A stretch of 64,000 bases of DNA, taken from the IMG/VR virus record IMGVR_UViG_3300021964_000012, positions 188,001-252,000 of that record. One strand, written 5' to 3'. Below are positions 730 to 51,126 of this stretch, in pieces. Within the stretch, counting starts at the first letter, position 1; each line of letters begins with the position of its first letter. The position numbers and the translations under genes were made by a program. The stretch is from a virus. Under the pieces are notes generated by a model. That model saw nothing but the letters and a program-made list of their open reading frames with translations, did not search any database and was not told where the DNA came from.

Positions 730-1058
730 TATTTTTTAGCTTTGCCTACTGCTTGTGCACCAAAAAATGCTGCCACAATAGCCGCAACTGATACAAAGTA
801 TACTGCTGCCATATCACCTAATATCTTAGCAGCTTGATCCATGCCAATTATATTTGCTATTAGTACTATTGCAGGATATAGTAACATACCAAACAGTGCA
901 AACCATGCCATGCTACGTTGTGCATCACGCATAGCATCTGCATCTTCTAGTTCTTTGCGTTTGAACTCTAGATACATTGCCTGTTCTTCTTCAGTTACTT
1001 TTCCATCACCGTTTGTATCTGCAGGATGAAAACCTGCTTGTTTAATTTCTTCTGCCAT
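729..1058 (-). CDS. EF-hand membrane protein
   Basis: This 109-residue protein carries one canonical EF-hand calcium loop at residues 14-25 (D14, N16, D18, K20, T22, E25). A charged helix follows, then two hydrophobic segments at about 49-72 and 83-104 and a short basic tail. It is therefore probably an inner-membrane protein with a soluble calcium-binding N terminus. Size and two-helix layout would also suit a holin-like or virion membrane protein, but nothing proves that. A good ribosome site (GGAGAGCTAGA before ATG) supports the start, and a CTAAATA late-type promoter lies 26 bases upstream. Confidence 0.7.
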   Translation of the reverse strand: MAEEIKQAGFHPADTNGDGKVTEEEQAMYLEFKRKELEDADAMRDAQRSMAWFALFGMLLYPAIVLIANIIGMDQAAKILGDMAAVYFVSVAAIVAAFFGAQAVGKAKK

Positions 1059-1083
1059 TCTAGCTCTCCAATGGTTAACTTTC

Positions 1084-1090
1084 TATTTAG
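1084..1090 (-). promoter_or_regulatory. late-type promoter CTAAATA
   Basis: CTAAATA on the minus strand, overlapping the stop of the upstream gene and 26 bases before the EF-hand gene start. It is a variant of the T4 late element TATAAATA. Confidence 0.4.
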
Positions 1091-1620
1091 TTTGCTAATG
1101 GGTTGTCCAAAGCCCTTTGTATTTTACGCATAAGTCTATCTTCTAGTTCTTTAGTATCGCGATTTACTGTTTCTCTTAAACTATCTCGTTTAGTTTCAAA
1201 TCTACTTTCAGCATCGGTTATCATATTACGCACATCATCTACACTTTTACGAACCATGTCTTCAGTTCTATCTGCTTGTTGCTCAATACGCAGTATGTCA
1301 TCACGTAATCCGCCTTTAATATCACGTGTATATTCCACAGTGTCTTCCATTTTGGATTCCATGATTTGCATACGTTTGTCATATGCATTGATTTTTGCTT
1401 CATATTCTTCTTGTTGTTCAACAAACTCTATAGCTTGTTCAACCTTTTGATACATTAGAAAGCCACCATATAATGCACCAAGCACACTACCAATAACTGC
1501 AACAAGAGCAGACATTGACATAAAACTCACTTTAAAACCAAGGATACGAAACTCTTTATTTTTAAGGTTTTCTATACCCTCTTCGATATTTTCAAGTTCA
1601 TCTCCTAAATTTTTAGCCAT
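1087..1620 (-). CDS. single-pass membrane protein with long coiled coil
   Basis: The 177-residue product has a charged N terminus, one transmembrane helix at about 33-57, and then a long heptad-rich, highly charged region (about 60-170) that should form a coiled coil. No enzymatic motif is seen. A clear ribosome site (GGAGAGAAC) precedes ATG. It lies between the EF-hand membrane protein and the exported-protein run, so a role at the cell envelope or in membrane-bound assembly is plausible but unproven. Confidence 0.65.
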   Translation of the reverse strand: MAKNLGDELENIEEGIENLKNKEFRILGFKVSFMSMSALVAVIGSVLGALYGGFLMYQKVEQAIEFVEQQEEYEAKINAYDKRMQIMESKMEDTVEYTRDIKGGLRDDILRIEQQADRTEDMVRKSVDDVRNMITDAESRFETKRDSLRETVNRDTKELEDRLMRKIQRALDNPLAN

Positions 1621-1632
1621 GTTCTCTCCAAA

Positions 1633-2082
1633 CTACTTTACAGTTTTTTCAATTTTAACATTATTCTTAAGTTTGTTTTTAAGTTGCAGTTCTCGTAACT
1701 TTTTTAGTTCTTGTTCCAGTTTCAAAACTTCTAGTCTTTTCTTTTTAAGCTCTAACTGGTATAGTGTATTACAGTTTATACGTTCTTTAGGACCGTCTAA
1801 TGGTACAGTTATTCTTGCATAAACACCTATATCTTTGGTACTGTTGCCTACGGTTGTATTGTCGTCAAAAGGACTTTGATAGTTATCAATGATGCCAGTC
1901 ACACCAAATTCCAAGTTGGTACTACCACCGATAGCATTTTGGCAATCTAAATCGCCTGCTTTGAATTTATCACTGGAAAAGTTGCTAGATGCGTTTGGTA
2001 ATTGAAGATTTAATGAACTACTGTTAGCGAATGCATAGTTGGATAAAATTGTTAAGATTAATAATAATAAAAAATTTTTCAT
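1633..2082 (-). CDS. exported protein with C-terminal helix
   Basis: This 149-residue protein starts with a typical signal peptide (MKNFLLLLILTILSNYAFA, likely cut after residue 19). Residues 40-95 look like a beta-rich domain with two cysteines. The last 45 residues form a Lys/Leu/Glu-rich helix. It lies in a run of four neighbouring genes whose products also begin with signal peptides. Such runs accompany 'curli-related' clusters reported for pelagimyophages; no CsgG pore is visible here, so that link is only suggested by context. Confidence 0.6.
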   Translation of the reverse strand: MKNFLLLLILTILSNYAFANSSSLNLQLPNASSNFSSDKFKAGDLDCQNAIGGSTNLEFGVTGIIDNYQSPFDDNTTVGNSTKDIGVYARITVPLDGPKERINCNTLYQLELKKKRLEVLKLEQELKKLRELQLKNKLKNNVKIEKTVK

Positions 2083-2084
2083 GC

Positions 2085-2468
2085 CTATTCATGCTTGAAT
2101 CTAGAACATATTTTTGAAGAAATGGTTGAAGATCTTAAATCTTCAGTTCTTATCTTCGACCTACTACATATATATTCAGCCTTGTATTTGTCAATTTCTC
2201 TTATATAAACATCTACTTCAGTACGTTCTAAATATTTTATGTTCAATATTGTATATTGAGACACAAATGGTATAGGTCTCCAGTCCTTGTCAAACACTCC
2301 TATCTCATAATAGTCCACATCATTCCTTTTGTTGAAAATTTCCATACGAGTAACCAAGAGGTCATCCATATAAGCATATTTCCACTTAGGATAGGTTGGT
2401 GTCATCTCATGACCAAAACTGCCATGTGAAAACAATATCAACCATAATATTATGAAATATTTATACAT
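2085..2468 (-). CDS. exported protein, chaperone-like pattern
   Basis: The 127-residue product has a cleavable signal peptide (about residues 1-19, ending HGSFG). Alternating beta-strand segments follow, with a late Y-I-C and two further cysteines near the C terminus. The strand pattern vaguely recalls the N-terminal half of periplasmic pilus chaperones, but no diagnostic motif is present. It sits two bases from the preceding exported gene and is adjacent to a pilin-like exported protein, so a periplasmic partner role is an inference. Confidence 0.55.
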   Translation of the reverse strand: MYKYFIILWLILFSHGSFGHEMTPTYPKWKYAYMDDLLVTRMEIFNKRNDVDYYEIGVFDKDWRPIPFVSQYTILNIKYLERTEVDVYIREIDKYKAEYICSRSKIRTEDLRSSTISSKICSRFKHE

Positions 2469-2972
2469 CTATTGGGCTACACAAACTGCCTCAACATTTG
2501 CAGTATAGTTTCCACCTGGAAATGCTTTGTTACCGCCATATGTTGCAATCGAAGTTGATTTGAACCAAGTTGATCCAGTTGCAGTTAAATCATACTGTGT
2601 TGTCTGTCCAAATGTGGTTTTGTTTGTGTCATAGCTTGCCATACCAGTTGCATCACTTACTGAACTTACACTTGTTGATCCTGTCCATGTTACAGTGTCA
2701 CCAAGTGAAGGACTTGTACTAAATGATGTTGGTGTTGTAATCTGTGCATAATATGCATCAGCAAGTGTTACATCATATCTAACTATAGGTTCTACACCAC
2801 CATCTGATGCTGACGTTGTAAGTGTGTAAGCATTAGGGTTACCATATGTTCCTGGTGTGTCTGTTGTTATAACACACCGTGACTGTACAGTTCCACTGAT
2901 TGGTACATCAACTGCTTGTGCCGAAAATGCAAATAAACTCATAGCAATAAAAATTGTTGCTTTTTTGAGCAT
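2469..2972 (-). CDS. exported pilin-like beta protein
   Basis: This 167-residue protein has a standard signal peptide ending AFSAQA (residue 20). The mature part starts DVPISGTVQSRC, is rich in Thr/Ser/Gly, and ends with a second cysteine in EAVCVAQ. A Cys in the first strand and another near the C terminus is the layout of fimbrial or spore-coat-U type adhesin subunits. I cannot assign the exact family. Together with the adjacent exported proteins it may form a surface structure made during infection. It starts one base from the previous gene's end, indicating one transcript. Confidence 0.55.
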   Translation of the reverse strand: MLKKATIFIAMSLFAFSAQAVDVPISGTVQSRCVITTDTPGTYGNPNAYTLTTSASDGGVEPIVRYDVTLADAYYAQITTPTSFSTSPSLGDTVTWTGSTSVSSVSDATGMASYDTNKTTFGQTTQYDLTATGSTWFKSTSIATYGGNKAFPGGNYTANVEAVCVAQ

Positions 2973-2983
2973 GTTTCTTTCTC

Positions 2984-3874
2984 CTATTTGTACTGCTGAG
3001 AAACCATTTTCTCATGCAATATTTGTTGAGCTAGGCCATTCCTAAGACCTGCTTTGTTCTCTGGTAGTTTAGCATCTACCAATCTAGTTGTTTCTTTGTA
3101 CTGTCCGCCTGGAATAGTTGCAGTAAGATATTGATTACTAACTGCTACATCCATTGCTCTATTCATCTGTTCTATTCTTTGATTTTCAGCAAATAGAGCT
3201 GCGGCATCTGTAGCACTCATTAGTTTTTGCAATCTATACTTTCGTTTTGCTTCTTCTGCGGCTTCTTTCTCTTCTTCTTCTTTTTCGCTTAATCTTTCTT
3301 CGTTTTCTTCTATAGATACTTTTTCTTCACTGCTTAAATTTACGTATTCATCTTGTGTTGCATCATACAATTCTACTTTTACTTCTGGAATAACTGGAAC
3401 TGGCGTTTTGTATCCAGGACAGTTAGGACTAAACTGAGGATCATAACAAGGATCAACTTTGTAACTGTAGATCACAGTTGGTTCTTCAATAGTACCTGTA
3501 CCCTCTACTTCTATTGATCCATCGCCCCATGCTTCTCTTGGAATATCTCCTATTCCAATAACCTTACGTACTTCTATTCCTCCTGGTGCGCCTGACCAGT
3601 CTTCTGTATCTCTAAAAACGTATCCAGTTCCATTTGCATTTTTGTTCTGTACGTGAACTTTCATGTCGTCTTCTGTTTTCTTGTTAGGTGTGTATTTGTA
3701 AAACACACCATTGATGTCTAAACCTGGAGGAGCAGGCAATATGTTAGGCATACTCCAACTCAAACCGTTTTGTGCCGCGTTTGGAGTTGTACCATAATAT
3801 GGTGCAATGTTATCAGAGTAACAATAGTAGGGATAAAATCCCACCAATACTCCAAGTAGCAGCTTTTTTAACAT
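2984..3874 (-). CDS. exported protein with charged coiled coil
   Basis: The 296-residue protein has a signal peptide (about 1-20). A Pro/Gly-rich domain follows with two cysteines in a DPCYDPQFSPNCPGY segment (about 142-156). Then comes a very acidic Glu/Lys coiled coil (about 185-225) and a helical C terminus. It overlaps the upstream exported gene by 62 bases. The signal peptide and an AAGGAAG-type ribosome site nevertheless support this start. No enzyme motif is seen. It is probably part of the same envelope-associated cluster. Confidence 0.6.
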   Translation of the reverse strand: MLKKLLLGVLVGFYPYYCYSDNIAPYYGTTPNAAQNGLSWSMPNILPAPPGLDINGVFYKYTPNKKTEDDMKVHVQNKNANGTGYVFRDTEDWSGAPGGIEVRKVIGIGDIPREAWGDGSIEVEGTGTIEEPTVIYSYKVDPCYDPQFSPNCPGYKTPVPVIPEVKVELYDATQDEYVNLSSEEKVSIEENEERLSEKEEEEKEAAEEAKRKYRLQKLMSATDAAALFAENQRIEQMNRAMDVAVSNQYLTATIPGGQYKETTRLVDAKLPENKAGLRNGLAQQILHEKMVSQQYK

Positions 3875-4364
3875 CTACTTGTTCTTCCTTACCGTTCTTT
3901 TCGTGTTTCTGTTTATCTTCATGTGATTCCCAACCAATCTTGGCTGCTTCTCCAATTTTGCCTTCATATGGACAAGGAGTACCTGCCATCATCATTGCAT
4001 CAAACACTTTTGCATCTTGACACATAACGGAAACTGCGGCAACTTTCATGCCCATGTCATACAATGTCTTTGCATTTTTTAATCTTATACAGTTGTCTTC
4101 TGTAAATGTGGTACCTGCACTTATACCTAATATCTGTGTTTGTACTGCACCAGCAACACCTATTGTACATAAATCGCTATTGTTGCCTGTGTTAAACTGC
4201 GGCGATATAGCACTTGGTGGTGGCGATTTTACAGTTGTTTCCATATTTCCTTCAGTAATAATTTTACTGTTCGTTGTGCTTTCTGTTACTATTGTTTCTG
4301 CAAGTACATTGGTCATAGTCATAAAAAACACAATTATTGTGCAAATAAATAATTTTTTAATCAT
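3813..4364 (-). CDS. exported protein with C-terminal hydrophobic anchor
   Basis: I chose the internal ATG at 4364 because AGGAAAAG lies at proper spacing and a signal peptide (MIKKLFICTIIVFFMTM, cut near NVLA-E) follows. The upstream GTG at 4388 would bury it. The 183-residue product has three cysteines in a conserved-looking middle region (DLCTIG, DNCIRL, VMCQDA, PCPYEG), a lysine/glutamate stretch, and a hydrophobic C terminus ending in five leucines that could anchor it. It is the first gene of the exported run, with a TATAAATA promoter 66 bases upstream. Confidence 0.6.
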   Translation of the reverse strand: MIKKLFICTIIVFFMTMTNVLAETIVTESTTNSKIITEGNMETTVKSPPPSAISPQFNTGNNSDLCTIGVAGAVQTQILGISAGTTFTEDNCIRLKNAKTLYDMGMKVAAVSVMCQDAKVFDAMMMAGTPCPYEGKIGEAAKIGWESHEDKQKHEKNGKEEQVDVKKAATWSIGGILSLLLLL

Positions 4365-4429
4365 TGATTCTTTTCCTAGATAATACACGACTATTTATTT
4401 GCATAAAAACATTAGTTTCTTACTGCAAA

Positions 4430-4437
4430 TATTTATA
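4430..4437 (-). promoter_or_regulatory. late promoter TATAAATA
   Basis: A perfect T4 late element on the minus strand, 66 bases before the first gene of the exported-protein run (2469-4364). It should make that run late-expressed. Confidence 0.65.
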
Positions 4438-4463
4438 GATCTCATGATTTGTTTTTCGTACGA

Positions 4464-4522
4464 ACAAAATTTTGACGGTCACAATAATTTGTACCAAAAT
4501 TAGGTACAAAATTTTGACGGTC
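4464..4522. repeat. pair of 17-base direct repeats around a small hairpin
   Basis: The 17-mer ACAAAATTTTGACGGTC occurs exactly at 4464-4480 and 4506-4522. Each copy contains the palindrome CAAAATTTTG. Between them is an inverted pair (GTACC at 4491-4495, GGTAC at 4503-4507), and just before lies the palindrome TTCGTACGAA. The block fills the spacer between the 73-residue gene and the late promoter at 4430. Confidence 0.7.
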
Positions 4523-4525
4523 TGT

Positions 4526-4747
4526 CTAATAGATTTTGGTTTTTTTTGGGTCAACTCGACGTGGTTCGCATACTGCGATATAATTTTGAGTTTTTACTTC
4601 ACCTTCGCCTGCACGTGAATTTGGCACACTGGGTTGGTTGTTGAGTCTTTCTGCAAAATACTTACAACTATCAATGCTGTGAAAGTACATATTTTGATTT
4701 ACTATATTTTTTCCAAGGTAGACTATTAGTAAAAACACATGAGTCAT
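4526..4747 (-). CDS. small exported or membrane-anchored protein
   Basis: The 73-residue product begins with a short hydrophobic stretch (MTHVFLLIVYLG) that could be a signal or anchor, and has single cysteines in SCKYF and AVCEP. No family is recognised. Its ATG overlaps the TGA-end of the next upstream gene by four bases, which argues that it is a translated gene. A repeat-containing spacer follows it. Confidence 0.5.
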   Translation of the reverse strand: MTHVFLLIVYLGKNIVNQNMYFHSIDSCKYFAERLNNQPSVPNSRAGEGEVKTQNYIAVCEPRRVDPKKTKIY

Positions 4748-5217
4748 GAGTACATTATAGCACTAATAATACCACCAGCAATAACAATAAGTATACCGAA
4801 TCCCATTAATGCCATCTTTATATCTGACCAAAGTTCTTCATTTTCTTTTTTGGCTTTGATACGTGCTTGACGTTGTGCTTCTTTGTGTTCAGCAATACGT
4901 CTTGCACGTTCTTCGAGTATGCCTGCCCAAGTTCCTGGGCCAAATCGTAGATTGACAAGTGTGGCTATTTCTTGTAGTTTTTCAGCAGCTAGTTTTTGAT
5001 CAATTGTTTCTTGTGCAATGTGAGCAGTGTCAAATTGTTCTTTGACACCCATCTGGCGTTTGTTAACTTTTTTGTCTAACTCTTGTTTTCCACGTAATAG
5101 ATTGTCGATATGACCGCCTATCTCGCTTATGTCTTGACAGGTTTGAATATTTGATTTTATAAAGTCAACACTACTTTTTACCAGGGCAATCCCTGCTAAT
5201 ATTTCTGCAACTGGCAT
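4744..5217 (-). CDS. coiled-coil protein with C-terminal membrane helix
   Basis: The 157-residue protein is helical and highly charged (about residues 25-130), with one hydrophobic segment at the C terminus (about 134-154, MALMGFGILIVIAGGIISAI). It would be a tail-anchored or C-terminally anchored membrane protein. No enzymatic motif is present. A CTAAATA promoter at 5269-5275 followed by a hairpin precedes it, so expression is probably late. The function is unknown. Confidence 0.6.
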   Translation of the reverse strand: MPVAEILAGIALVKSSVDFIKSNIQTCQDISEIGGHIDNLLRGKQELDKKVNKRQMGVKEQFDTAHIAQETIDQKLAAEKLQEIATLVNLRFGPGTWAGILEERARRIAEHKEAQRQARIKAKKENEELWSDIKMALMGFGILIVIAGGIISAIMYS

Positions 5218-34984: not shown

Positions 34985-36873
34985 GTTGTAACCGCATCTA
35001 AATACTGTAGTATTTGTTTTTTAATTCCAGGATTGCTATTGATTTGTTGAGCCAGTGTTATTACAGGATCATCACTGGCAATTTTCTTTAGATCAGGCAT
35101 CTTTATACCAGCAGTTTGAAATGCTTGTTGCATCACTGCTCCGTCTATGCCTTGAGTTGTAAGCCATTGTGCAATTTGTACACTGTCAGTTGGTTTGCCG
35201 GCTTTTGTCCATGCTTTCATAAGTTTATCAGCAGTTACTTTAGTTGTGATATTTGTACCGACTTGACGAGCTTTTTGTCCAAGTTTGGTAACACCTTTAC
35301 CAATTTGTTGTTTTAAGTTTGAAAGCATACCGCCTGGTGCTTCCATAAGATCTTGCTTGTAGGCAACTGCAACAAAAAGTTTTGTAATTTGATCTTCTGT
35401 GAGTGCATTCGCAGTACTGTGTCCGCTCTGCAACAATGATCTTCGTTTTGCTAGTTGCTCTGGAGATAGGTTCTTAAGTCTTTCTGCTTGAGCAGCGGCT
35501 TTTGCATCTAAATTTTCAGCGGCACCGGGTACGTTATCTTTTAGCCATTGTGTAGCCTCTGGACTCATAGCCTGTGTTCCTGGAAATTGTGAGTTGAATT
35601 GATCTATTAGTTCTGGGTCTGTAATTGGTATATCACCACGTACGACAATACCTTCGCCTGTGCCGCCTGGTGCAACTAGATCAGCTTTTGCTTGTAGGTC
35701 CGCTCTGCCTTGTGCAACTTTATCCCCTACACTACCACTTTGAGCAGTTGCAGTTCTATCAGCACCTGTTCCACCACTTACTTCATCAGGGTCAACAACA
35801 TCACCACCAGTTGTACCGTCTAAATGACTTTGTAGTTGTTTATTGTATTGATCTATTATATCGTCAGGAATATTGTCTTGATTTGGAAGGTCAATCAACC
35901 CATCCATTTGTTCTGGTGTTAAAGGTTGTCCTGGTTGATATGATGCAAGATTCAGTCCATTTTCATCATACATAGGTCCTAGTTGTGCATTGTATTGATC
36001 AATTACATTCTGCGGTATACCGTCTTGATTTGGCAAATCCTGTATCATGTTCATTTCAGCAGTTGATAGTTTACCATCAAAGTCTGCAACAATATCATCT
36101 ATACTAGTAGCACCTGCTATATCTTGTATGCCGGCAGCTCGCATATCTGCGGCCGTTCCGGCGTCAACATCGGTGATTCCGTCGAGGCTATTTCCTCCAC
36201 CAGCAAATCCTCCTTGTGTTGATTGTGCAGTATCAGCAGTTGCTCCAACAGCATCTCCGCCACCACGCACTAGATCGCCAAGTGTACTTGCACCGGCCGC
36301 CAACGCACCAGTTTTACCTGCACTGTATAACGCACTTCTTATGTCTTTACCTTGTAACAGTTGATCTGTAAGTTTAAACAAACCTAATGCGGCAGCACCA
36401 CCTAAACCTGCACCACTTACACCAGCGGCTGCAATCAATGCGGCATAGATAAAACCTTGCATAATAGGATGTTTCTCTGCAAACTGACGATATTTTTTAA
36501 CAGCTTGCATTACACGACCTTCGTCGCCACCTGCACTTTGCTTCAGTTGTTCGGCGGCGGCATCATATTTTTGTGCAAAGCCTTGCATAGGTCCAGAATT
36601 GTAAACTTTTGCCTTTAGATCATTCCAAGGTTTAACAATTGCTTGATTAACTTTGTCTAATCCTTTACCAACTGCCGTACGGTTTGATCCAGCCTCAGTT
36701 GCAGTTTTTTCTATTTCTGCAAACAAACCTTGTATCTGTTGTGGTGAAAGTGCAGCTTCACGAAGTTGATATCCCACGTTTTCCCAAACAAGATAGGTAT
36801 CGAGATTGGTTCGGTTAAGACTTTCTAGTAATGCATGTCTTGATTCATGTTTTTTTAATTCGGTGATCCTCAT
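34981..36873 (-). CDS. large repeat-containing virion-type protein
   Basis: The 630-residue product has a helical N terminus and a small-residue hydrophobic segment (about 135-175, GFIYAALIAAAGVSGAGLGG) that could insert into membranes. The middle is Gly/Asp-rich with a duplicated segment (DLPNQDGIPQNVIDQYNAQL and DLPNQDNIPDDIIDQYNKQL) and a third weaker copy. The C-terminal domain is helical (LTEDQITKLF onward). It may be an ejected or baseplate-hub protein. The start overlaps the previous gene by four bases (ATGA). Confidence 0.55.
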   Translation of the reverse strand: MRITELKKHESRHALLESLNRTNLDTYLVWENVGYQLREAALSPQQIQGLFAEIEKTATEAGSNRTAVGKGLDKVNQAIVKPWNDLKAKVYNSGPMQGFAQKYDAAAEQLKQSAGGDEGRVMQAVKKYRQFAEKHPIMQGFIYAALIAAAGVSGAGLGGAAALGLFKLTDQLLQGKDIRSALYSAGKTGALAAGASTLGDLVRGGGDAVGATADTAQSTQGGFAGGGNSLDGITDVDAGTAADMRAAGIQDIAGATSIDDIVADFDGKLSTAEMNMIQDLPNQDGIPQNVIDQYNAQLGPMYDENGLNLASYQPGQPLTPEQMDGLIDLPNQDNIPDDIIDQYNKQLQSHLDGTTGGDVVDPDEVSGGTGADRTATAQSGSVGDKVAQGRADLQAKADLVAPGGTGEGIVVRGDIPITDPELIDQFNSQFPGTQAMSPEATQWLKDNVPGAAENLDAKAAAQAERLKNLSPEQLAKRRSLLQSGHSTANALTEDQITKLFVAVAYKQDLMEAPGGMLSNLKQQIGKGVTKLGQKARQVGTNITTKVTADKLMKAWTKAGKPTDSVQIAQWLTTQGIDGAVMQQAFQTAGIKMPDLKKIASDDPVITLAQQINSNPGIKKQILQYLDAVTT

Positions 36874-46239: not shown

Positions 46240-46660
46240 GCATGTGTTCCTTCAGTTCTTTATTTGTTACAAGTTTACTGAGCATATCTATTTCATCTGC
46301 TTTCATTGCAGGATACAACTCCATCAACATCTTCTTTGCTTCATTATTGCCTTTTTCTTTCTTCTTTGGTGGTATCCACTGATGTCTGTGATTGCCCATA
46401 CCAGGTGAAATAGCAGTAGCACATAACCATTGTAGTTTAGGATGCTTGTTTATGTCAAAGAAATGTTTATTCAAACGTTCATTACAGGCTATCAAATAGT
46501 ATTCTTGAAGTTCATTAGGACCTTGCACACTTGATCCCCAACGTATCATGAGAAAGTTGGAAAACTTTTTGCGTTCTTCATCTGTCAGACTATCGTAAAA
46601 GTCTCTGCTTTTACTGTCAAGACAACGCATCTCATTTGCTATGTTTAGTTTTTCGCTCAT
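46211..46660 (-). CDS. possible clamp-loader small subunit (gp62-like)
   Basis: From ATG 46660 (MSEKLNIANEMRCLDSKSRD) the protein has 149 residues. By eye the middle (RLNKHFFDINKHPKLQWLCA, then GMGNHRHQWI) and the end (LSKLVTNKELKEHM) resemble the AHFNYLMAAVPRGKRYGKW and LKGLVTDDFLKEV segments of T4 gp62. This similarity is weak and unverified. Location among replication genes fits. Otherwise it is a conserved protein of unknown function. Confidence 0.5.
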   Translation of the reverse strand: MSEKLNIANEMRCLDSKSRDFYDSLTDEERKKFSNFLMIRWGSSVQGPNELQEYYLIACNERLNKHFFDINKHPKLQWLCATAISPGMGNHRHQWIPPKKKEKGNNEAKKMLMELYPAMKADEIDMLSKLVTNKELKEHMRDSGVADKK

Positions 46661-46880
46661 TGTGTTTTTTCCATATCTTGTGCAGTATGTAAAACCAAAA
46701 TCCGTTGATACAAGGTTCAACTAATGCAACTGCGCCTGCTTCCCATAAACTTGAACCAGTCATCCAGTAAACAACATTCATTGCTATTATAACATGACCA
46801 ACAGTATAAATCAATGCCAATGCAATACTATCATCTACTTTTTCTTTTACAACAGTAAATATTCCTCTAGTAAATTCCAT
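46632..46880 (-). CDS. small membrane protein (DUF2061-like)
   Basis: The 82-residue product has two or three hydrophobic segments (ALALIYTVGHVIIAMNVVYW; AGAVALVEPCINGFWFYIL) and a basic C terminus (KIWKKHNERKTKHSK). The VGHV...VEP...WFYILHKIW pattern resembles the DUF2061 membrane family. The role in phages is unknown. Its end overlaps the next gene's start by 29 bases. Confidence 0.65.
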   Translation of the reverse strand: MEFTRGIFTVVKEKVDDSIALALIYTVGHVIIAMNVVYWMTGSSLWEAGAVALVEPCINGFWFYILHKIWKKHNERKTKHSK

Positions 46881-46884
46881 ACGA

Positions 46885-47385
46885 TCACCATGCTTTGTTA
46901 TAGTCTACAATTTCGCAGTTACGACTGATATCTTTTACAAAATAAACACATCTTGGATCATTTTTGTTTTCAACCGGTACTGCCAACATCTGTCCATTTT
47001 TAAGTTTAGGAACATACCAAGTTACGTCTTGATAAACATCAATTATTTCTATATCCAGATAGGTTGGTGTAAAACTTGTGTGTGGATTGAATTGGAAAGT
47101 TTTAAAACCTCTATCATTGATACTAGTTAAAGGTAACATCTCAAGATCACCAACTTCTGGTTCACCAATCAGTACCTGCCAATCAATTGGCATTTTCATC
47201 TGTGTTTCACCAATACGCAATACCAATGCTGGCGAGTTAAATGTTTCTAAAAATATTAATGGAATATAGATGTGATCTGGATTGGTTGGATCACTGTTGT
47301 CAAAAATAGCAAAACGTAAGTCATCTATCTCTTCAGGCAATGTATCTAATTCAAACACAGTATTTTCTAGTGTTAGTATTCTCAT
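46885..47385 (-). CDS. conserved-looking protein downstream of the cassette site
   Basis: The 166-residue product (MRILTLENTVFELDTLPEEI) is beta-rich, with segments like YIPLIFLETFNSPALVLRIG. No motif is recognised. Its first 33 bases around the start are duplicated, with two differences, at 48117-48149. This marks it as the fixed downstream flank of a cassette site that lies between it and uvsW. The ATG overlaps the end of the SGNH gene by four bases. Confidence 0.6.
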   Translation of the reverse strand: MRILTLENTVFELDTLPEEIDDLRFAIFDNSDPTNPDHIYIPLIFLETFNSPALVLRIGETQMKMPIDWQVLIGEPEVGDLEMLPLTSINDRGFKTFQFNPHTSFTPTYLDIEIIDVYQDVTWYVPKLKNGQMLAVPVENKNDPRCVYFVKDISRNCEIVDYNKAW

Positions 47386-48101
47386 AATGTCTCCATCAAG
47401 TATTTTGCAAATAGTTCATGAGCTCGTGCTCCAGGGTGTCCGTGTATTCCATACAAATGTTCGTCCTTTGGTTGCAATCCTTGTTCTCGTGCAAAGGTTC
47501 CAAAACTAAATTTCCAAGGGTCTATAACTCCTTCATCCTTTAGTATTGTGTCTTGTAGACTACTAATAAAAGGACTATTGTATCCAACGTATTCGCTACC
47601 TTCAAGTTTATCAACATTTGAAAATATCTTATACTTAATACCTTTACTACGTAACCAACCTATTAGCATAACTAAATCAGTACATAGTTCGGTCATTTGT
47701 GATTCTCGATTATAATGCATTAACCATTCCTTATAGTATTCACTAACTACTGGATCAACTTTTTCATGTATATTTGGTACTATTGAATCCATTAGTCCAT
47801 TAGTCCAAGATACGTTTTGCGTTGGCTTAATTTGATAAAAATGCCCATCGTTGTCGACTGCTGGCAAGTCTGGTCTCCATATTTCGCTGCGACTTATAAA
47901 AGTCAATCCTATAAGAACTAATACATCATCTGCAATTTCATTTACATCACGTAACGTGGTTCTGATTATACGTCTATTGCAAGAACCAGGTATAGCTTTA
48001 TTAATTAGTTGTGCTTTAAGAGTTTTTGCAATGATTTCAGAATATACTGGATGACTCTTAGTAGGTACACCAAAACTACAACTATTTGAATAAAGTATCA
48101 T
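47382..48101 (-). CDS. SGNH-type hydrolase-like cassette gene
   Basis: From ATG 48101 the protein has 239 residues. It begins MILYSNSCSFGV, where the SGNH block I serine position is N-S-C-S, and continues with LINKAIPGSCNRRI (block II-like Gly), LIGLTFISRSE (block III-like) and IHGHPGARAHELFAKYL (block V His). Many phage and glycan-locus proteins share this short-form layout. It lies between a hybrid junction and the MRILTLE gene, so it is one of two tandem cassettes at this site. Confidence 0.6.
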   Translation of the reverse strand: MILYSNSCSFGVPTKSHPVYSEIIAKTLKAQLINKAIPGSCNRRIIRTTLRDVNEIADDVLVLIGLTFISRSEIWRPDLPAVDNDGHFYQIKPTQNVSWTNGLMDSIVPNIHEKVDPVVSEYYKEWLMHYNRESQMTELCTDLVMLIGWLRSKGIKYKIFSNVDKLEGSEYVGYNSPFISSLQDTILKDEGVIDPWKFSFGTFAREQGLQPKDEHLYGIHGHPGARAHELFAKYLMETL

Positions 48102-48139
48102 TTGTTCCAATCCAGTTTTTCTAGTGTCAGTATTCTCAT
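48098..48139 (-). pseudogene. 13-codon hybrid frame at a recombination junction
   Basis: The frame reads MRILTLE, as the start of the gene at 46885-47385, and then KLDWNK, close to the uvsW end EKLEWN. It stops with TGA overlapping the SGNH ATG. It is the joined remains of two gene ends rather than a selected gene, although it could still couple translation. Confidence 0.75.
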
Positions 48140-48149
48140 AATTTCTCCA
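48099..48149 (-). repeat. hybrid repeat joining the uvsW 3' end and the downstream gene 5' end
   Basis: Bases 48099-48123 match 48742-48766 (uvsW end) at 23 of 25 positions. Bases 48117-48149 match 47363-47395 (start of the MRILTLE gene) at 31 of 33. The two matches share the seven bases TTTTCTA (48117-48123), which mark the crossover. Confidence 0.85.
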
Positions 48150-48150
48150 A

Positions 48151-48744
48151 TTATTTTATCTTGTGTCTTTTCATTATTACGCCGTATTCAAAAAAGTCTT
48201 GTCGGACTATTTCAAACCCTTGTGCTAAAAGCCAAATAACATTTGCTCCACATTTTCCTACCCAACAGTCATTCAAGGTATGAGTATCATCAAACACGAC
48301 TACTGCATCGTCAGTAAGATAAGGAAATATAGCAATCATTTGTTTCATGTGTTCTACCTGGCAGGTTTGATTTGCCAATGGTATGCCTAGTTCTTCTCTA
48401 TAGAAACGTCTTTGTTTTATATCACTATCATCTAATATAAGGTCGATATCCCATATATAATCAAAATTGTCTAGATATAGACAACTAATTTTTTTATCTA
48501 ATTTTGGCAATTGATTCACGCACCAATCACTGCCCCATCCAATATGCCATGTTGCTGGTAGATCTGGAAGACGTCTTTTTGGTTCATCAATAATATCTAC
48601 AGTGTGCATTTCAGCACCATGCTTTTGTGCTAATCGTGAAAAGTATTCTGTACTGCCTTCGTGTCTATCACTGCCTATTTCTAAAAACATTGTGTTATTT
48701 GTTTCACCTAAGTACTGTTCCGTATGTTTAAATGCGTCGCCCAT
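48151..48744 (-). CDS. class I SAM-dependent methyltransferase-like cassette gene
   Basis: From ATG 48744, which overlaps the uvsW TAA (TAATG), the protein has 197 residues. MFLEIGSDRHEGSTEYFSRL is the glycine-rich SAM-binding motif I. MHTVDIIDE (acidic end of strand 2) and VVVFDDTHTLN (motif of Methyltransf_24-type enzymes) follow. The substrate is unknown; a sugar or small molecule is likely. It is the first of two tandem cassettes after uvsW. Confidence 0.7.
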   Translation of the reverse strand: MGDAFKHTEQYLGETNNTMFLEIGSDRHEGSTEYFSRLAQKHGAEMHTVDIIDEPKRRLPDLPATWHIGWGSDWCVNQLPKLDKKISCLYLDNFDYIWDIDLILDDSDIKQRRFYREELGIPLANQTCQVEHMKQMIAIFPYLTDDAVVVFDDTHTLNDCWVGKCGANVIWLLAQGFEIVRQDFFEYGVIMKRHKIK

Positions 48745-50204
48745 TAGTTCCACTCCAGTTTTTCTACACTGTACGGATAGTTCGCTTCTCTATAGAATGC
48801 TTTACGTTTGGTTAGATGTCTTTTTGCAAATCTGCAAGTAGATGTTATGTCCCAGATTTGGACGTGGTCTTTGTCTTCCGCTTTACGAATACCCCTGCCA
48901 ATACTTTGTATAACCCGTACAAAACTTTTACCAGGCTCAAGAAGGACAAGATTGAAGATACGTGGCAGATTAATGCCCACGGCCGCGACACCATATGTAG
49001 CAATAATAATTTTACCTGTCGCAGTAGCCACTTCATCGTACTCATCCTGTCTTGCTTTTGCTTTGGTTGCACCACTTACAAATACTGCATCATCGCCCAT
49101 TCTGTTTAGTAACTCTGTGCCAGCACTTATTCTATCAACCAATACCAATGTGTTACCAGTTTTATTTACTTCAATAACCAAGCCTGCAATGGTATCAAGT
49201 CTGCCTTTTTCTTCAAATAGATACTTTAATTCACTCTGATAGTTTGTAAATTCAGCATGATCAATTAACTGTACAACATTTACGTGACAGTTTGCAAGTA
49301 CACCTTTTTCCTGTAGCTCACTTGCAGCAAGTTGATTTATCACTGGCCCTAAACTACAATGCAATGCTTGAAACTCATATGGCTCTTTTGGCACTGTTCC
49401 TGTTAGTCCCCAACGCAATGGTACACGTGCCATTACTCCAGTGAGCAATGTTTTAAGTGCATCTGCTTTAGCCATATGTACTTCATCAACTATCACTGCA
49501 ACTACGTCTTCTAAAAACTCATGTATTGTAATATCAACTGTTTGGTTCTTTGTGTTCTTTAGCAACACATTTAGACTTTGCCATGTGCATATTGTATGCT
49601 TATGCCCAAACTCTTTTCTATCACCATAGAATACGCCAACATCAAGTTGCATGTTTGAATAGTCTGCTTCTGTTTGTGTAACCAAACTTTTATTAGGAAC
49701 TATTACAATACTACGTCCATAGTTTTCTACACGTTCACTTAGACTTGCAGTCATAATTGTTTTACCAGCACCAGTTGCTACTTCTTGTATGCACTGTGGA
49801 TTTTTTAAGAAACTGTTTATGATCTCTACTTGATAATCACGCATCTTAATAGGAGTGCCAGAGGCAGGATGATTCTTCGGCCACATAATGTCACTGTAAG
49901 TATCTTCTGCCACTGGATCAAACTTGAATACTGTTTGGTATTCTCTGTTGTCTTGTATGTCAACATCGTAGTTGAAGTCTTCTAATATAGGAAGTATATC
50001 TGGTAACAAGTTTAAGTATGTGCTACCGCCCATTTGAAAGTATGCAACCTTACCATCCCAACGTCCTAGTCGTACTGCTGGCAAGTATCTTGCATGCGGT
50101 ACATCATACTTGAAAGTGTTCACGAGTTTCTTACGAACATCAAGCTCTAGTCCTGATATCTTAAGATTTACTTCATCATTTATTATTAGTGTTGCCGTTC
50201 TCAT
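48744..50204 (-). CDS. uvsW: UvsW-like superfamily 2 helicase
   Basis: The 486-residue protein has the N-terminal T4 UvsW-type domain and then SF2 motifs: QEVATGAGKTIMTASLSERV (Walker A GAGKT), AVIVDEVHMAKADAL (DEVH box), RWGLTGT (motif III), TLVLVDRI (motif IV), IIATYGVAAVGINLPR (motif V) and RVIQSIGRGIRK (motif VI). It remodels branched DNA and R-loops during recombination-dependent replication. A near-consensus sigma-70 promoter precedes it. Its last codons (EKLEWN) are duplicated at 48099-48123. Confidence 0.94.
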   Translation of the reverse strand: MRTATLIINDEVNLKISGLELDVRKKLVNTFKYDVPHARYLPAVRLGRWDGKVAYFQMGGSTYLNLLPDILPILEDFNYDVDIQDNREYQTVFKFDPVAEDTYSDIMWPKNHPASGTPIKMRDYQVEIINSFLKNPQCIQEVATGAGKTIMTASLSERVENYGRSIVIVPNKSLVTQTEADYSNMQLDVGVFYGDRKEFGHKHTICTWQSLNVLLKNTKNQTVDITIHEFLEDVVAVIVDEVHMAKADALKTLLTGVMARVPLRWGLTGTVPKEPYEFQALHCSLGPVINQLAASELQEKGVLANCHVNVVQLIDHAEFTNYQSELKYLFEEKGRLDTIAGLVIEVNKTGNTLVLVDRISAGTELLNRMGDDAVFVSGATKAKARQDEYDEVATATGKIIIATYGVAAVGINLPRIFNLVLLEPGKSFVRVIQSIGRGIRKAEDKDHVQIWDITSTCRFAKRHLTKRKAFYREANYPYSVEKLEWN

Positions 50205-50210
50205 AATATT

Positions 50211-50238
50211 ATTATATACACTTTTTGTAATTAGTCAA
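50211..50238 (-). promoter_or_regulatory. sigma-70-like early promoter of uvsW
   Basis: TTGACT (50233-50238) and TATAAT (50211-50216) with a 16-base spacer on the minus strand, seven bases before the uvsW ATG at 50204. The start of transcription therefore falls at or very near the ATG. Confidence 0.65.
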
Positions 50239-50243
50239 GGAAA

Positions 50244-50272
50244 GTGGGCAACATTTTTACAACATTGCCCAC
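50244..50272 (-). terminator. terminator-like hairpin after the AAA+ gene
   Basis: GTGGGCAA (50244-50251) pairs with TTGCCCAC (50265-50272) across a 13-base loop. Only TTTCCTT follows on the minus strand, so termination may be partial. Confidence 0.6.
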
Positions 50273-50313
50273 CTGTGGTTGTCCAGGAGCTAGATCTGAT
50301 ATGACAACCTATT

Positions 50314-51126
50314 CTATCTGCGTTTCATCACAGTGTTTTCTGCTAACTGTTTCCAGTTAGGACTTACCTTTGTAAGATCTGCTATCTTCAACGCCATTCT
50401 CAAACTGACTTCTCTTAATTTATCCTTAACAGTATCCATGAAAGCAATTACTTCGCCTTCCATTTCTTTACTAAGATCATAATCCTTAAACAGTTCGCCT
50501 GTAGCAACAATCTGTTTAATACGTAAGAACTTGTCTCTCATAGTATCAAGTGTAAGATCCAAGTAATGACATCTTGATTGTAATGCATCTAAATGATCTT
50601 GTAGTTTTTTACTTCTAACGTTCTCAAATTTTACATTAGTAATAAAAATTACACCGCCTTTGAATTCAAACTTGTCTGGAATACCTTCTGATCTAAGTTT
50701 GTTACTATCTGCATTCCAATGTAGCACACGTTTCTTACCTGAATCAAGTGCAGCCTTAAGTATATTAAGACTAAGTTCGTCCATAAGCACACTGTCACAG
50801 TCATCAAATACTAACACATGGTTAGCATCTGCATGTCTGTATAATGTAGCATATAGTCCTAGTGCAGTCATTGCACCTTTTACGACTTCATACTTGATTG
50901 GTCTACCAGCAATGCTATCCATCATTGATGCTTTGTCTAATTCTTTTTCAACTCCATAACTCTTTCCGACTCCTGGAGGTCCAGTAACAATCATAGCTCT
51001 AACATCACCAGCAATAACTGCTTTGGTCATATCATGTAGTATATCAAAACGTGTAGCAATACGGTCCATAACCTGCTGATCAGTTTCAAAATTAATAGTT
51101 TTGGAATCTTGTTTTTTCATTTGCAT
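50314..51126 (-). CDS. AAA+ ATPase
   Basis: I start at ATG 51126, which follows AGGAGAGCTAGA; the longer frame would include that ribosome site. The 270-residue protein has Walker A GPPGVGKS (49-56), Walker B HVLVFDDCDSVL (about 103-114), VIFITNVKF (sensor 1 Asn) and ALQSRCHYLDL (arginine finger area). It differs from gp44 clamp loaders. Possible roles are remodelling in replication or transcription control. It is followed by a terminator-like hairpin and then uvsW. Confidence 0.8.
   Translation of the reverse strand: MQMKKQDSKTINFETDQQVMDRIATRFDILHDMTKAVIAGDVRAMIVTGPPGVGKSYGVEKELDKASMMDSIAGRPIKYEVVKGAMTALGLYATLYRHADANHVLVFDDCDSVLMDELSLNILKAALDSGKKRVLHWNADSNKLRSEGIPDKFEFKGGVIFITNVKFENVRSKKLQDHLDALQSRCHYLDLTLDTMRDKFLRIKQIVATGELFKDYDLSKEMEGEVIAFMDTVKDKLREVSLRMALKIADLTKVSPNWKQLAENTVMKRR

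Follow-up and report, generated by a model that had tools for sequence, protein, structure and literature searches.

A hybrid of MRI and uvsW gene ends lies between two tandem cassette genes in a jumbo phage

How does a large phage come to carry two unrelated genes in tandem between two conserved ones, with a short hybrid of the conserved genes' ends between them? We addressed this question in a 64,000-nt stretch of DNA (the window; positions 188,001 to 252,000 of IMG/VR virus record IMGVR_UViG_3300021964_000012). Its minus strand carries, in order, a uvsW-like helicase gene, a putative methyltransferase cassette gene (MT), the hybrid, a putative esterase cassette gene (SGNH) and the MRI ('MRILTLE') gene (Table 1). 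A first-pass annotation had read the same order along the gene strand and interpreted the hybrid as the junction left by an unequal crossover between two related phages, each with a different cassette between uvsW and MRI, at a hotspot for gene exchange.

Table 1. Features of the uvsW–MRI interval, in window positions
Feature	Position	Strand	Basis
uvsW-like helicase gene, anchoring the variable interval on the left	48744..50204	-	ResIII/DEAD/Helicase_C; PHROG DNA helicase
uvsW end, copied (23/25) in the hybrid; TAA overlaps the MT gene ATG	48742..48766	-	repeat comparison
MT cassette gene, 197 aa, predicted class I SAM methyltransferase fold	48151..48744	-	structure model
Hybrid, probable scar: MRI leader and start joined to uvsW end, 51 bases	48099..48149	-	repeats, relatives, shuffles
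7-nt microhomology TAGAAAA, overlap of the two hybrid halves; proposed breakpoint	48117..48123	-	repeat comparison
In-frame mini-ORF MRILTLEKLDWNK and stop, 13 aa; TGA stop overlaps the SGNH ATG	48098..48139	-	sequence
SGNH cassette gene, 239 aa, DUF6071; predicted GDSL/SGNH esterase fold	47382..48101	-	Pfam and structure model
MRI leader and start, 33-nt repeat copied (31/33) in the hybrid	47363..47395	-	repeat comparison
MRI gene, phrog_11279, right anchor; ATG overlaps the SGNH stop	46885..47385	-	PHROG

The hybrid and the two cassette genes

The MRI leader and start recur at 48117-48149 with 31 of 33 positions identical, and the uvsW end recurs at 48099-48123 with 23 of 25, exactly as first annotated. 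The two repeats overlap at TAGAAAA on the gene strand, the TTTTCTA at which the join had been placed. From its start codon the hybrid reads ATG AGA ATA CTG ACA CTA GAA AAA CTG GAT TGG AAC AAA TGA, so that the opening MRI codons continue, without a change of frame, into the closing codons of a uvsW gene; the window's own MRI gene has CTA where the hybrid has CTG. The best matches in 300 dinucleotide shuffles of 8 kb reached 24/33 and 19/25, and no other place in the real window exceeded 21/33 and 16/25. Only four direct repeats of at least 24 nt within 5 kb occur in the whole 64-kb window, two of which are the hybrid pairs, and the 25-nt uvsW-end word (up to three mismatches) was found only at the uvsW end and in the hybrid across the entire 328,292-bp record. 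Elsewhere in the window, a 54-nt direct repeat (35833-35886 and 35980-36033; 80% identical, 147 nt apart) probably lies inside a repetitive protein.

A Pfam search with the MT gene gave no match, so a structure model was used. This model (pLDDT 87) matched class I SAM methyltransferases in the PDB (best 6g80, E 6e-7, TM about 0.6), and a distant member of the family had only a sub-threshold Pfam match, to Methyltransf_24. The SGNH gene matched DUF6071 (E 1e-9) and its model (pLDDT 76) matched the GDSL/SGNH acetyl- and thioesterases 1deo, 4rsh and 1ivn. On the strength of these models, the cassettes are predicted to encode a methyltransferase and an esterase. PADLOC returned no match for three window proteins and, for four other cassette proteins, one methyltransferase-domain match only. 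The virus record also encodes its own RecA-family protein, and further SGNH-like genes lie elsewhere in the same genome (G000:C1:77200-77349 and 81102-81308, loci L106 and L107); at L107, two SGNH-like genes sit close together beside a sulfotransferase-like gene.

The uvsW–MRI interval in related phages

IMG/VR was scanned with the window MRI protein, two diverged MRI proteins and the two cassette proteins, which yielded 241 distinct loci besides the window. Including the window, 223 intervals were complete from uvsW to MRI; because the contigs were not dereplicated, these are counts of contigs and not of independent phages. The interval was empty in 117 of the 223 (in 16 of which the uvsW stop overlaps the MRI start), held one insert in 79 and two to four genes in 27, with sizes from 0 to 2.9 kb. 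Its open reading frames fall into about 27 families, so that gene turnover is high between two conserved genes, and families F3 and F4 were found in both orders (L123 versus L088, L116 and L117). Besides MT and SGNH, the cassettes include ClpP-like, PIG-L-like, short-chain dehydrogenase, aminotransferase-like and NUMOD3/HNH endonuclease-like genes. The last of these (L080, L156, L171 and L221; twice on the opposite strand) could cut in the interval and promote exchange there. The anchors are also present in named cultured phages, of which Phosso and Atu_ph07 have an empty interval and PA5oct, GAP32 and SCTP-2 each have one different small gene. Four loci (L047, L060, L061 and L062) have intervals of 30-45 nt whose remnants resemble the two ends of an MT-type cassette, as an internal deletion would leave them.

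Relatives with neither gene, with MT only, with SGNH only and with other genes were therefore all present, as the first-pass annotation had predicted, rather than a single two-gene order throughout. MT-like genes occupy 22 single-cassette loci, down to 36-46% identity, of which L005, L006, L015 and L016 are close to the window, and SGNH alone occurs at L035 and L040. The MT–SGNH double is rare and narrow, while empty and single-cassette intervals are common: apart from the window, it occurs in four further contigs (L001-L004) from four metagenome datasets, with a clearly different MT allele in L004. A degenerate pattern search for MRI/uvsW hybrids returned only these four contigs.

The proposal of a hotspot was borne out by the high turnover between uvsW and MRI, but the interval is not unique. 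Among relatives, the lengths of the intervals upstream of uvsW and downstream of MRI are equally variable, which makes uvsW–MRI one hotspot and not the sole one. In the window, these flanking intervals are 50204-50314 (only about 110 nt, next to a phrog_1250 AAA gene) and 46660-46885.

We then compared the two halves of the hybrid with the junctions of single-cassette phages. The uvsW genes of the SGNH-only loci L035/L040 end in AAACTGGATTGGAACAAATGATACTTTATTCAAATAG, identical to the right half, and the left half is likewise identical to GGAGAAATTATGAGAATACTGACACTAGAAAA, with which the MRI genes of the MT-only loci L015/L016 begin. When 141 distinct uvsW ends and 137 MRI starts were searched blind for the best match to each half, the same loci emerged, L035/L040 for the uvsW half (23/23) and L015/L016 for the MRI half (23/23). 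Control sequence (83-92 kb each) scored only 14-16, except at L162, whose own genuine junction fell inside the control stretch. The hybrid thus joins the MRI start of one cassette type to the uvsW end of the other, as first proposed. The SGNH gene of L035 is 89% identical to that of the window (DNA), so no sampled living pair represents the true parents.

Origin of the double array

The most probable origin of the window, to which we assign a probability of roughly 0.8, is ectopic (unequal), microhomology-mediated recombination between two related single-cassette phages. The joint and the surviving singles support the earlier idea of a crossover between two cassette-bearing phages, but it requires amendment on two counts: the exchange was illegitimate, since identity at the joint is only about 7 nt, and the flanks are further mosaic. 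The parents, presumably co-infecting one cell, would have been uvsW–MT–MRI (A) and uvsW–SGNH–MRI (B). The start of A's MRI would have been joined to the end of B's uvsW at their common TAGAAAA, appending B's SGNH cassette, tagged with the last codons of B's uvsW, behind A's MT cassette. Then or later, ordinary homologous recombination on both sides would have re-mosaicked the flanks. The scar was probably kept because it is in frame and provides both a ribosome-binding region and, at the SGNH start, an overlapping stop, so that SGNH translation would stay coupled through the mini-ORF. Overlap between the uvsW stop and the ATG of the first cassette was seen in 54 of 102 intervals, and a joint inside the uvsW end would for this reason keep the cassette's start region.

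Flank similarity was compared in segments of 100 nt. The MT gene and the final 100 nt of uvsW match the MT-only L005/L006 (88-98%), whereas positions -300 to -100 of uvsW are 97-100% identical to empty phages and 76-84% to MT-only phages. The SGNH gene is 97-100% identical to that of L088 (L088 841-1557) in most of these segments and 98.9% over the whole gene (DNA), but the MRI gene of L088 is merely 69% identical to that of the window; SGNH has therefore moved recently between diverged lineages. At the MRI start, from about codon 7, similarity switches to the MT-only L005/L006 (93-97%) and later to L015/L008 (98-99%). The outer flanks thus do not simply follow A to the left and B to the right: the fit to an MT parent is limited to the last 100 nt of uvsW and that to an SGNH parent to the first MRI codons. 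Judged by these flanks, a single clean crossover of two extant types is not enough to account for this genome, and extra homologous exchanges must be assumed. Parental flanks need not persist after an old event, because later exchange erases them, and homologous exchange has been so frequent to the left and right that the precise succession of events can no longer be reconstructed.

The same flanks bear on a different route, in which an SGNH unit with TAGAAAA on either side, one copy from a uvsW end and the other from an MRI start, was inserted as an excised circle or on a fragment at the TAGAAAA in an MT-only phage's MRI start, in place of a single crossover. Both the uvsW end with the MT gene and MRI beyond about codon 7 resemble MT-only L005/L006, as just described. 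In addition, codon 4 of the window MRI (CTA) is that of SGNH-only L035 and codon 7 (GAA) that of L005, a pattern that puts the right-hand switch inside ACACTAGA, where the left joint also lies. However, this switch is defined by two polymorphic sites, both variable in many relatives; an ordinary homologous exchange at the beginning of MRI would look the same, and no circular or free SGNH unit is known. We regard such an insertion as improbable, though as a serious rival. Considerably less probable is an ancestral double that gave rise to the MT-only and SGNH-only types by deletion between the 33-nt and the 25-nt repeats. The repeats would permit exactly these two deletions, and near-empty intervals with cassette scraps (L047, L061) indicate that loss occurs. 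Yet the hybrid can form only from separate uvsW–cassette–MRI units, and the singles outnumber the double and are more diverse, as the spread of identities among the MT-like singles illustrates.

The intact in-frame ORF, its ribosome-binding-like GGAG and the overlap of its stop with the next start might also suggest an element designed for regulation or as a leader peptide, and not a scar of recombination. This is very unlikely, since the hybrid equals two known junctions carrying the neighbours' own polymorphisms and is confined to this array; moreover, no RNA structure was found when sought at the hybrid. Finally, all these sequences are metagenome assemblies, and MT-only and SGNH-only phages from one sample could in principle be assembled into a chimera. 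We give this the least credence of all, because the 7 nt common at the joint are below assembler word length, five records from several datasets agree, and L002 and L004 show allelic differences.

Other arrays and known routes of gene gain

Two further loci were informative. In L050, cassette 1 runs in frame into YPFTVEKLDWNG and a stop, a uvsW end, followed by an MT' cassette, whereas the single-cassette relative of cassette 1 in L037 ends QEYLTYE. The copied end is 36/36 identical to MT'-only L049/L051/L054 and differs from L050's own uvsW; the joint itself has hardly any identity (about 1 nt). Judged from its sequence, L050 is certainly a second array in which a uvsW end was copied to the junction of two cassettes, and an independent repeat of the pattern. 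The SGNH gene of L091 ends ISTTEWK, where relatives end TETL or METL, and 16 nt of this tail are identical to L091's own uvsW end; a kinase-like gene comes next. As AACGGAG is present both in MRI leaders (CACAACGGAG in L007, L034 and L052) and in the uvsW end, it is the likely joint, and L091 is probably a third such array. The MRI gene was not found in the L091 stretch examined, in which kinase-like, nucleotidyltransferase-like and methyltransferase-like genes and a second SGNH-like gene follow the uvsW-end copy (900-4936).

All three joints (window, L050 and L091) lie in the uvsW reading frame at different breakpoints; with three cases only, an in-frame bias is no more than suggestive. Some 21 other multi-cassette loci had neither such a scar nor a shared site at their array joints, so unequal joining is not the sole route to arrays. 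Among these searches, the joints of L066 and L123 looked suggestive but scored 11 and 13, at or near background, and uvsW-like ends on the SGNH-family genes of L111/L113, L116/L117, L134 and L133 scored 14-16, the control level, and may be native C-termini. The same end/start search of three neighbouring intervals (276 kb) gave no scars; four score-18 matches there fell at the very end of an interval and were boundary calls.

The double array is a clear and well-supported natural instance of a known process, within known recombination biology, and not a new kind of system. Under laboratory conditions, tandem arrays arise in T4 where microhomologies of 6-10 bp occur (Srikant et al. 2022, PMC9391042, and older T4 work cited therein). 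The window resembles this tandem segmental amplification in its 7-nt joint (TAGAAAA) kept as one copy, its tandem array and its T4-type phage. Amplification in T4, however, duplicates a genome's own segment under laboratory selection; here two units with unrelated genes, not copies of the same locus, were joined in nature from two genomes, with gene ends supplying the microhomology. As in P2/P4 accessory hotspots, for which exchange by homologous recombination was proposed (Rousset et al. 2022, PMC9122126), a small locus between two conserved genes turns over rapidly, but the phage is a jumbo phage, tandem-joint scars are visible and PADLOC recognised no known defence genes among the window cassettes. 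T4-related novel-ORF regions likewise hold variable ORFs between core genes, with illegitimate exchange proposed (Petrov et al. 2010, PMC2993671); the import route left unclear there can be followed here, where the joint and both parental junction types are readable. The mosaic flanks would be accounted for by relaxed (homeologous) phage recombination, which tolerates divergence (Martinsohn et al. 2008, PMC2327257), although about 7 nt of identity at the joint is far below homeologous exchange between 22%-diverged genes. Insertion driven by a homing endonuclease differs in that the window interval has no endonuclease gene, even though other phages have NUMOD3/HNH-type genes in the same interval, and an integron-type array would have a common site at each joint, whereas breakpoints here differ between the window, L050 and L091.

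A broader proposal, which we hold only tentatively, is that arrays here grow by a repeatable, recombinase-free route in which the last uvsW codons travel with a cassette as a portable start signal (ribosome-binding region and overlapping stop/start). Joints in the uvsW end would then add a ready-to-translate gene, and selection for in-frame joints might make illegitimate recombination orderly.

Gene gain by large phages is usually inferred from before-and-after pictures. At this locus the before states (empty, MT-only and SGNH-only), the after state and the exact joint are all readable in wild phages, and the single-cassette types still circulate and match the halves of the scar, so that one route of gene gain can be read directly. 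The locus thereby offers a natural test of microhomology-driven gene gain, through counts of joints, any preference for the reading frame and any collapse between the 25-nt and 33-nt repeats.
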